Shown here: one piece after another, positions 3,739 through 5,377 of the stretch
Layout of the letters: each line of letters starts with the position of its first letter
How positions within the stretch are numbered: the first letter of the stretch is position 1
Source of the DNA: a virus
Length of the DNA stretch: 20,671 nt
Reading direction: 5' to 3' (one strand)
IMG/VR virus record: IMGVR_UViG_3300020463_000176
Location: 1 to 20,671 of that record
The notes under the pieces: generated by a model
What the model was told of the DNA's origin: nothing
The model's database searches: none
The model's input: the letters and a program-made list of their open reading frames with translations, nothing else
Program-made: the position numbers and the translations under genes

Positions 3739-3975
3739 TTATTTAGATTTGATTACGTCTCTCACGTAGGAGGGAACACCATCAGGATCTAACCAACAGG
3801 TGTAATTAAAGTCCGCCATGGCTGTCATCAGTTGCATTGAGTTATCACATAGATACATGTCTTTGTACCTACGAGTGTGTTCATCAAACTTCTGAATCCT
3901 ACAATCAGGTTTTCCGTTTTCTAGATCACCGTTCTCAACGTAACGATAGGGATATTTCTCAAGTAGAATATTCAT
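3739..3975 (-). CDS. hypothetical small protein
   Basis: A 78-aa soluble protein rich in aromatic and charged residues. It has two cysteines in the first half (C25, C43) and one later in a FNYTCWLDPDG segment. I do not recognise a domain. It starts with ATG inside the last codons of the upstream gene (4-base overlap, start 3975 against stop 3972), which argues for translation as part of the same message, and is followed after 19 bases by the coiled-coil gene. Confidence 0.7.
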   Translation of the reverse strand: MNILLEKYPYRYVENGDLENGKPDCRIQKFDEHTRRYKDMYLCDNSMQLMTAMADFNYTCWLDPDGVPSYVRDVIKSK

Positions 3976-4187
3976 GCTACCTCTGTCTTCTCAAGATCTT
4001 CTGCCAGACAATCAATGAGAATATCATAGTCATCCAGAGGGTCACCAGAAAAAGTTACACCATCGTTCTCATAAAACTTACGAACCTTTTTGAAAAGTTT
4101 CGGATTCTTTACGTCAAGGAAGAAGTCCCCTTTCACTGCGGATCGGAGAGTCGTGATGTCCTTTTTGAACTTAGAAGTGATAGTCAT
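3972..4187 (-). CDS. hypothetical small protein, first gene after an early promoter
   Basis: A 71-aa protein beginning MTITSKFKKDITTL, with a basic N-terminal half and an acidic C-terminal tail (DPLDDYDILIDCLAEDLEK). The open frame extends upstream to a TTG at 4238, but that TTG is part of the -35 box of a strong promoter (4210-4238) whose predicted start is near 4203. The upstream codons would therefore not be in the mRNA, and the ATG at 4187 is chosen. Function is not recognised. Confidence 0.75.
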   Translation of the reverse strand: MTITSKFKKDITTLRSAVKGDFFLDVKNPKLFKKVRKFYENDGVTFSGDPLDDYDILIDCLAEDLEKTEVA

Positions 4188-4209
4188 TGTCTTTCGTATT
4201 GACCTTAGT

Positions 4210-4263: not shown

Positions 4264-4336
4264 TGGGGATCGTGGGGATCGAACCCACCTCCGCCGAATT
4301 ATGAGTTCGGTGCATTCACCAGATTGCTAGACCCCC
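4264..4336 (-). tRNA. tRNA with CAU anticodon (Met, or Ile2 if lysidine-modified)
   Basis: A full 73-base cloverleaf: acceptor GGGGGTC/GATCCCC (one G-U), a D-arm with three pairs, anticodon stem CCGAA/TTCGG around loop CTCATAA, T-arm GTGGG-TTCGATC-CCCAC, discriminator A. The 3' CCA is not encoded. It lies two bases after tRNA-Ile(UAU). Because that neighbour already reads AUA, elongator Met is the simpler reading, but CAU tRNAs cannot be assigned with certainty by eye. Confidence 0.93.
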
Positions 4337-4338
4337 GA

Positions 4339-4410
4339 TAGGACTGCCGGGAATTGAACCCGGTTTACCCCGTTATAAGCAGAGAGCATTAACCAATATG
4401 CGACAGTCCC
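4339..4410 (-). tRNA. tRNA-Ile (UAU anticodon)
   Basis: A 72-base cloverleaf: acceptor GGGACTG/CAGTCCT (first pair G-U), D-arm GCAT/ATGC with an 8-base loop, anticodon stem CTCTG/CGGGG (two G-U pairs) around loop CTTATAA, a four-base variable loop, T-arm CCGGG-TTCAATT-CCCGG, discriminator A. The UAU anticodon reads AUA directly. Most bacteria use a lysidine-modified CAU tRNA for that codon, so this is a notable phage tRNA. Its 5' end directly abuts the stop codon of the Phd-like gene. Confidence 0.88.
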
Positions 4411-4584
4411 TCAAGGTCCTTCGTTATTATCTTCTTTATAAAGTTTGTACAAAGCATCGTCAGTAGACATCATGACACATGCCGCGCCATTCTCATTCAC
4501 GATTCCTATATGTTCTCCGTTCTCTACTCTCTGAATCAGTTCATCCCAGTTTTTTTGAAACTCTTGCACGGTGAAGATTTCCAT
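4411..4584 (-). CDS. Phd/YefM-type antitoxin-like protein (orphan)
   Basis: A 57-aa protein starting MEIFTVQEFQKNWDELIQ. This matches the N-terminal pattern of Phd/YefM antitoxins: a strand, a helix with xFxxxxxxLxxxVExGE, then a GIVNENG-x-ACVMMS strand. Family members bind DNA and neutralise a RelE/Doc-type toxin. No such toxin is visible beside it. The frame extends to a TTG at 4623 that overlaps the upstream gene; the ATG at 4584 gives the usual family N-terminus and is chosen, although an AAAGG precedes the TTG. The stop codon touches tRNA-Ile, so mRNA and tRNA probably share a transcript. Confidence 0.75.
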   Translation of the reverse strand: MEIFTVQEFQKNWDELIQRVENGEHIGIVNENGAACVMMSTDDALYKLYKEDNNEGP

Positions 4585-4606: not shown

Positions 4607-4789
4607 TTAAGACCAGTAACCAATTACCTTTAATAGACCATGTGCGTAGAAAAATAACAACACTGATCCAATACTAGCACTGATAACTGTGGCAGTTTTG
4701 TTGTGTTTGTCGATAGCTTTATCGATAAGATCCTGACACTGTTTATAAGTGACCATGTGTTCAGGTTTAATCTCGGGTAGGCGTGACAT
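4607..4789 (-). CDS. small single-span membrane protein
   Basis: A 60-aa protein with a charged N-terminal half and one hydrophobic helix (about residues 33-54, TATVISASIGSVLLFFYAHG). No enzyme motif is seen. The perfect -10 box at 4795-4800 puts the predicted transcription start at about the ATG at 4789, so either this ATG is used on a leaderless message or translation begins at the internal ATG at 4756 (49 aa, membrane span kept). It precedes the Phd-like gene; whether the two work together is unknown. Confidence 0.65.
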   Translation of the reverse strand: MSRLPEIKPEHMVTYKQCQDLIDKAIDKHNKTATVISASIGSVLLFFYAHGLLKVIGYWS

Positions 4790-4794
4790 GTGTA

Positions 4795-4822
4795 ATTATA
4801 CTACAGTAGATGGAAATGTCAA
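4795..4822 (-). promoter_or_regulatory. consensus sigma70-like promoter
   Basis: The minus strand has perfect hexamers TTGACA (4822-4817) and TATAAT (4800-4795) with a 16-base spacer. The -10 overlaps the stop codon of the 2OG oxygenase (TAA, 4798-4796). It should drive the membrane protein, the Phd-like gene and the two following tRNAs. Confidence 0.78.
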
Positions 4823-5377
4823 CTCTTTATAGGTATAAGCCACGGTCAATCGTGGTACCTTACATAGTACGTTAGGTGCATATCCCATATGATCGAGATG
4901 TGCTGGGAATAGGATTCCATTATTTGGTATATATGTTTCGTAATAATACTGATTTGGTTTAGTTGTCAGGATAAACTCACCTCCCCATTCAGTTTTCCAA
5001 TATGGACATGCAAATATATTCAAGGTCCAAGTGGATTCACCACCGTCCGTATGGAAGGAAGACTCTTGACCAAAGAATTGAATATTTGTATTAACTCTCT
5101 TGAGTTTTAAAGGACATCGTAAAATTTTCTCACAATGATACTTCAATATAGAACCAAATTTAATCAGTGTCAAATTGTCTCCGATGGTAGATACCGTTGA
5201 TCGTAGAGAAGAAGGTTTTTTTATGCACCCCATCGGTGGATGGTCCAATCCTCCATCGTTTTTGGTGAATCTCCAAGTATTATATTGTGAATTGAACTCA
5301 TCGTACAACGAAAAAAATTGATTAACAGACAAAATATCTTGTAGTCTGTAGAAATTATCAACCTTATCGTACCTCAA
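4796..5377 (-). CDS. 2OG-Fe(II) oxygenase superfamily protein
   Basis: A 193-aa double-stranded beta-helix dioxygenase candidate. It has the iron-binding HxD motif at H109-D111 (SSFHTDGGES), a WGGEF strand (131-135), then GILFPAHLDHMGYAP with the distal histidine (H163, or less likely H160) and R176 as probable 2-oxoglutarate anchor. Such enzymes hydroxylate proteins, nucleobases or small molecules. The substrate is unknown; cyanophages often carry several. It overlaps the Cys-rich gene upstream by 14 bases, so it is read in the tRNA-Val unit. Confidence 0.82.
   Translation of the reverse strand: MRYDKVDNFYRLQDILSVNQFFSLYDEFNSQYNTWRFTKNDGGLDHPPMGCIKKPSSLRSTVSTIGDNLTLIKFGSILKYHCEKILRCPLKLKRVNTNIQFFGQESSFHTDGGESTWTLNIFACPYWKTEWGGEFILTTKPNQYYYETYIPNNGILFPAHLDHMGYAPNVLCKVPRLTVAYTYKELTFPSTVV

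Follow-up and report, generated by a model that had tools for sequence, protein, structure and literature searches.

A stand-alone Phd/YefM-fold protein of T4-like cyanophages recurs beside tRNA-Ile and tRNA-Met genes and lacks the DNA-binding residues of its cellular relatives

Introduction

Stand-alone phage antitoxins are usually named by homology and then left at that. What might such a protein do when no toxin gene accompanies it and its stop codon lies directly against a tRNA gene? This question is raised by a 20,671-base stretch of viral DNA (the window), which is an entire IMG/VR record and probably a genome fragment. The window comes from a T4-like cyanomyovirus, and its top megablast relatives are Synechococcus phages S-H68, RN05-S, RB11-B, S-B43, and S-B05. 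A preliminary description, made from the sequence alone, proposed that the gene, here called phd, encodes an orphan Phd/YefM-type antitoxin. The features of the locus are as follows.

4411..4584, minus strand: phd, a 57-amino-acid Phd/YefM-fold protein without a toxin partner (open reading frame call, profile matches, and fold)
4339..4410, minus strand: tRNA-Ile(UAU), called by ARAGORN, with base 1 at 4410, directly after the phd stop
4264..4336, minus strand: tRNA-Met(CAU), called by ARAGORN, next in the cassette after tRNA-Ile
3972..4202, minus strand: phrog_552 small protein, downstream of the tRNAs, with its own promoter-like site at 4238-4210
4607..4789, minus strand: small membrane protein of 60 amino acids, phrog_1096, the upstream neighbor of phd
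4795..4822, minus strand: promoter-like site TTGACA-16-TATAAT, the nearest upstream of phd (12 of 12 positions; a consensus match only)

Results

The phd product has a Phd fold and is under purifying selection

Translation from the ATG at 4584 gives 57 amino acids, and an alternative TTG start gives 70. Structure prediction supports assignment of the 57-amino-acid protein to the Phd/YefM type. The protein matched Pfam PF02604 (PhdYeFM_antitox) with an E value of 5.3e-6 and 26.5 bits, under the curated cutoff of 29.8, and matched phrog_375, "Phd-like antitoxin," with an E value of 3.2e-10. An AlphaFold2 model, computed from an alignment of 29 sequences drawn from the window and viral contigs only, had a pLDDT of 88.1. 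In a Foldseek search of the PDB, the best 39 matches were Phd, YefM, VapB46, and RelB-type chains, i.e., chains of the Phd/YefM type. The top match was P1 Phd cut at residue 57 (3hs2; TM score, 0.74), and VIA-align 2 aligned 56 residues of the model to the same structure with a Z score of 8.4 and an rmsd of 2.7. By these three methods the Phd N-terminal fold is present, and the RVENGE core signature is kept in the phage Phd proteins. Since Foldseek and VIA-align return Phd-type chains, the objection that the fold might not be Phd-like does not apply.

To place the protein among its relatives, tblastn was run with the window protein and found 26 phage records, several of which are labeled "Phd-like antitoxin" in RefSeq. 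The S-H9-1 protein led to a second cyanophage Phd clade of 65 records, some of them shared with the 26; this clade includes S-PM2, S-RSM4, and S-RIM44. In this S-H9-1/S-PM2 clade, most of the listed phd genes overlap or adjoin talC or a glutaredoxin gene; the two proteins that were read are 67 and 68 amino acids long, and in both loci that were read (S-H9-1 and S-WAM2) phd does not lie against tRNA-Ile, as it does in the window. The phrog_375 and RefSeq "Phd-like antitoxin" proteins of S-SM2, Bellamy, S-SKS1, S-TIM5, and S-PM2 belong to the same family as the window protein. The family is thus already named, and it is not a new kind of system.

From IMG/VR, the best 80 of 166 relatives were kept. 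In all, 96 complete phd open reading frames, including that of the window, were gathered by similarity, of which 41 were nonredundant at 88%. The median dN/dS of phd was 0.147 (667 of 2,318 relative pairs, with dS between 0.1 and 1.5). phd is therefore under purifying selection and is a real gene. It is kept in divergent phages (Kyanoviridae, S-SKS1, and S-TIM5). A close cellular homologue was sought and not found: none of 478 candidate stretches qualified, and among 300 Cyanobiaceae genomes the phage-type Phd profile gave weak matches in 4 (E values of 0.005 to 0.009).

No toxin gene is found beside phd

In the 41 loci, the open reading frames located up to four genes away from phd form 131 clusters. 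Most of these, together with the window genes, gave 76 neighbor proteins (5 of them neighbors in the window), which were compared with Pfam and PADLOC; mainly short or antisense open reading frames were left out. No toxin family was found among the 76, in agreement with the earlier observation that no RelE-, ParE-, or Doc-like gene stands next to phd. The adjacent same-strand toxin gene that marks a type II module is absent among these 76 proteins.

Two neighbors were considered as partners in their own right. The phrog_1096 membrane protein at 4607-4789 had been put forward as an alternative partner; this proposal failed, because members of the family turn up in 238 phage records and in several phages, S-SKS1 and S-TIM5 among them, are encoded kilobases away from phd. 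DUF7294 (phrog_662) is encoded directly upstream of phd in 22 of the 41 nonredundant loci. It was likewise rejected as a dedicated partner toxin: of the 42 phage records that contain it, many have it at a distance from phd (as in S-SM2 and Bellamy) or come from phages without a detected phd.

Several other features of these neighborhoods were recorded. In Synechococcus phage DSL-LC02 (L012:4001-4332), a further stand-alone antitoxin gene, of the MazE/AbrB type, directly follows phd with a one-base overlap, and the pair is located between tRNA-Pro and tRNA-Ile. In S-TIM5 (L013:7618-7857), a "plasmid stability" gene (phrog_568) lies amid tRNA genes a few kilobases from phd. A sugar-epimerase gene in L009 is preceded by a wcaG cis-regulatory RNA at 5149-5248 (Rfam RF01761, 92 bits).

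A scan of the window for promoter-like sites found 12, with 10.0 expected in shuffled sequences. In 6 of the 41 nonredundant loci (L006, L015, L063, L070, L074, and L076), the TGA stop of phd lies inside a −35 hexamer (TTGACA/G); these stop-overlapping promoter-like sites have 17-nucleotide spacing and face the next gene or tRNA.

The phage proteins lack the basic DNA-binding residues and have a shortened C terminus

The YefM2-YoeB complex of E. coli requires R10 and R31 of YefM to bind DNA (PMC4803016). We compared these two columns in an alignment that combined 41 phage proteins with 28 Phd/YefM proteins from hosts. At the R10 column, all 28 host proteins have R or K and none of the 41 from phages does (Q in 23, E in 16, and D in 2). 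At the R31 column, R is found in 26 of 28 host proteins, and a basic residue (R or K) in 7 of the 41 from phages. The window protein has Q and N at the two positions, so the basic patch of autorepressing Phd/YefM proteins is absent from it. The phage proteins are also more acidic, with a median net charge of −11 (−8 for the window protein) versus −4 for the host proteins.

The phage proteins are 54 to 72 amino acids long versus 75 to 97 for the host homologues, i.e., about 20 to 30 C-terminal residues fewer. In the model, the C terminus consists of a short helix (residues 44 to 51) and a tail, and it ends close to the truncation point of P1 Phd in 3hs2 (residue 57). The tail of the phage proteins ends in NNEA or HEEG; among 29 nonredundant 57-amino-acid proteins, N53 and E55 are invariant and A56 is nearly so. 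Tail codons 44 to 57 nevertheless have a pN/pS of 0.39 versus 0.23 to 0.26 for the core, and the tail is thus the less constrained part. Because the R10 and R31 columns are mostly nonbasic, the phage protein looks unable, from its residues, to bind an operator, and it looks to be without most of the toxin-wrapping C terminus. Lost DNA binding fits a gene outside any toxin operon, while a largely lost tail does not fit a classical neutralizer.

Short open reading frames of 36 to 44 amino acids occupy the phd position before tRNA-Ile or tRNA-Met in some loci (L180, L209, L217, L141, and L330 to L337). They have a phd-like C terminus (NNDAQ or NDDAS) and no Phd domain. Their conserved LTDxYxxLY part coincides with an in-frame TTGACN-18-TATAxT promoter in 8 of 8 loci checked, which explains its conservation. 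For phd itself, a purely DNA-level promoter effect was ruled out as the cause of tail conservation, since most tail codons vary synonymously.

phd is linked to a tRNA-Ile-tRNA-Met pair

The preliminary description had noted that the phd stop touches tRNA-Ile and that two tRNA genes directly adjoin the gene. The coordinates confirm this: the TGA is at 4413-4411 and base 1 of tRNA-Ile is at 4410, leaving a spacer of 0. In relatives the gap ranges from −1 to 43 nucleotides, so the zero spacer is not conserved. It is nothing unusual in tRNA clusters as compact as these; in Bellamy, another open reading frame ends one base before tRNA-Ser. In RN05-S, RB11-B, and L035, the phd stop codon and the tRNA share one base (the final base of the codon and base 1 of the tRNA), and RNase P cleavage at that junction would preclude a mature tRNA and a complete phd message from one RNA molecule.

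The same-strand adjacency of phd, tRNA-Ile, and tRNA-Met is recurrent in most sampled relatives. Among 93 loci with at least 120 nucleotides downstream of phd, which lean toward the window arrangement because they were picked by similarity to the window, the first 60 nucleotides held tRNA-Ile(UAU) in 66, tRNA-Met in 11, and no detected tRNA in 16. The corresponding counts for the nonredundant set of 40 were 26, 3, and 11, and 4 of these 11 (L040, L051, L036, and L011) have a tRNA or tRNA-like remnant that is visible by eye and was missed by ARAGORN. The order phd/tRNA-Ile/tRNA-Met is kept in S-TIM5 and S-SKS1, where the other flanks differ.

We also examined the linkage in the reverse direction by scanning viral contigs with one tRNA-Ile(UAU) pattern. 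This returned at least 120 stretches, of which 4 with less than 260 nucleotides upstream were dropped. Among the 116 stretches listed, phd was directly upstream in 68, elsewhere on the locus in 12, and absent from 36. Where tRNA-Met came next, phd was adjacent in 55 of 71 of the listed stretches, versus 3 of 24 where another tRNA came next (Fisher P value of 2e-8 among the stretches listed, with kinship ignored). Within this listed set, therefore, phd goes with the Ile-Met pair and not with tRNA-Ile as such.

The tRNA-Ile genes themselves vary. L134 and L144 have a tandem pair of tRNA-Ile(UAU) genes. Downstream of phd in L009 (4179-4271), L007, L037, L062, L070, L074, and L090, a putative tRNA-Ile(UAU) of class II shape, with an extended variable arm, replaces the normal 72-nucleotide tRNA-Ile of other phages; that of L009 matches the Rfam tRNA model with a 21-nucleotide insertion in the variable arm.

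A rare codon pair occurs near the end of many phd genes

Nine codons before the end of phd, many relatives (L037, L062, and L073, among others) carry the pair CGA-AUA. Across the 29 nonredundant 57-amino-acid phd genes, all 22 that encode Ile at codon 48 use AUA there, and 19 of the 20 that encode Arg at codon 47 use CGA. In open reading frames of at least 120 amino acids from loci L037 to L097, AUA accounts for 18% of Ile codons and CGA for 4% of Arg codons; in all plus-strand neighbors the values are 26% and 10%. Among the matches listed for pattern-derived loci, with 16 hits without the tail motif set aside, CGA AUA was used in 35 of 45 distinct RI tails. AUA is also common in codons 1 to 43 of phd (55 of 130 Ile codons). 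A count over both strands of 660,890 bases gave 53 copies of the sequence CGAATAYAC, and since 46 of these copies are in phd tails, the sequence was rejected as a general DNA site and is phd specific, with codon-level and DNA-level readings fitting alike.

The adjacent tRNA-Ile(UAU) reads AUA. phd, tRNA-Ile(UAU), and tRNA-Met could in principle form a codon-gated counterdefense cassette in which phd output depends on survival of tRNA-Ile(UAU), so that loss of the tRNA, e.g., to a host tRNA-cutting toxin, would be sensed by phd translation. We regard this as a long shot. The window gene has AAA CTT at codons 47 and 48 and would therefore have lost the gate or never had it.

Discussion

The phage Phd family is real and conserved, and it has properties that are hidden by the name "antitoxin." Comparison with characterized systems makes these properties plain. 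P1 Phd of the Phd-Doc system (PDB 3hs2, 4zm2, and 3k33) is also phage borne and shares the N-terminal fold (TM scores of 0.70 to 0.77), but it is 73 amino acids long (3k33 chain), binds DNA, and has doc as its partner, whereas the window protein has 57 amino acids, no doc, and replaced basic residues. YefM of E. coli and of host Synechococcus strains (YefM-YoeB) shares the fold and superfamily; unlike the phage protein, it keeps R10/R31 and a longer C terminus, and in hosts yoeB follows it. M. tuberculosis VapB46 (Phd type, PDB 6jqy) is the best PDB sequence match of the family profile, a weak one (E value of 0.0011, positions 1 to 33), and no VapC is found beside the phage gene.

A parallel by description, as distinct from sequence, is S-CREM1, a T4-like cyanophage with stand-alone antitoxin genes; a counter-toxin-antitoxin role was proposed for its YefM, TacA, and MazE genes (PMC9964418), the available text of which does not mention tRNA linkage, in contrast to the tRNA-linked phd described here. 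Neutralization of a host toxin as counterdefense, which the preliminary description suggested for phd and which is already proposed in print for S-CREM1, is possible for phd as well. Phage tRNAs have been proposed to counter tRNA-cutting defenses (available text of PMC10264068), and the phd-tRNA linkage would fit that proposal, the tie of Phd to such a nuclease being hypothetical. We found no description of the phd/tRNA-Ile linkage in the available text of PMC9964418, PMC5498466, PMC4803016, PMC10264068, PMC5332604, and PMC10665884, and a search for literature that combines phage tRNA clusters with antitoxins and counterdefense returned nothing.

Potential targets exist in the genomes of possible hosts, as a check for matching toxins indicates: Cyanobiaceae carry YoeB and PIN toxins partnered with Phd/YefM. 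Among 300 Cyanobiaceae genomes, PF02604 is found in 133 and YoeB (PF06769) in 80. In a host control, 22 of 28 host Phd genes had an adjacent YoeB match (coordinates compared by eye), and the 5 open reading frames downstream of host Phd that were typed comprised 2 YoeB/ParE and 3 PIN proteins. According to the available text of PMC5498466, Synechococcus CB0101 has seven type II pairs, eight other marine strains have at least one pair, and Prochlorococcus has none; yefM/yoeB, phd/doc, and vapB/vapC are among the pairs it names in CB0101. From these genome counts and strain data, a target is available in many, and far from all, possible hosts.

Our best guess, a tentative one, is that phd encodes an antitoxin-like factor that is directed at the host, is deficient in DNA binding, and is freed from autoregulation. 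It would be a minimal Phd/YefM-fold protein that lytic cyanomyoviruses encode without a toxin partner, in the same stretch as tRNA-Ile(UAU) and tRNA-Met(CAU). The protein would dimerize via its Phd domain, would be unable to repress a promoter, unlike cellular Phd/YefM, and might, in infected cells, act in trans on a host YoeB- or PIN-type toxin, which it would bind with its short acidic C-terminal helix and tail; the linked tRNAs may supplement decoding. The fold, the loss of R10/R31, the acidity, purifying selection, the toxin classes present in hosts, and the absence of an adjacent toxin speak for such a factor; the short C terminus, the less constrained tail, the patchy distribution of host toxins against the wide retention of phd, and the failure to find a close cellular homologue speak against it. 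Ranked close behind is a repurposed Phd fold, a somewhat less favored but still serious reading in which a small acidic dimer has no toxin target and binds another conserved host or phage protein, perhaps in host takeover. Both classical Phd determinants, the DNA patch and the toxin tail, are reduced, the protein is strongly acidic, and phd is kept across Kyanoviridae, S-SKS1, and S-TIM5, in contrast to the patchy distribution of host toxins (133 and 80 of the 300 genomes); yet the phage proteins keep the RVENGE signature and the complete Phd fold, and there is no known alternative target.

The remaining explanations are much less likely. A dominant-negative protein that forms mixed dimers with host YefM/Phd, and thereby releases or disturbs a host toxin-antitoxin operon, would make use of the kept dimerization fold and the lost DNA residues, and host YefM-YoeB operons are present in many genomes; low similarity to host YefM and no clear benefit to the phage make it unlikely. 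It is less probable still that a partner toxin is encoded elsewhere in the phage genome or by the neighboring small open reading frames: the window is only a 20.7-kb fragment, DUF7294 is directly upstream of phd in just over half of the loci, and phrog_1096 is adjacent in the window, but DUF7294 also occurs in phages without a detected phd, phrog_1096 is present in 238 records, and no toxin family was found among the 76 neighbors. Least probable of all is that phd is a decaying or neutral remnant traveling with the tRNAs. The tail-only short open reading frames at the same place in some phages do resemble decay, but the low median dN/dS and the 96 complete open reading frames (selected by similarity) disfavor a passenger.

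In this lineage the DNA-binding residues have been lost and the toxin tail appears to be largely gone; the gene is nevertheless under selection and stands in a recurring block with two specific tRNA genes. If the antitoxin-like factor does neutralize host toxins, it would be a naturally minimal antitoxin, and phage tRNA cassettes would be tied to a toxin arms race. If it neutralizes no toxin, many "antitoxin" annotations in cyanophages would be misleading.
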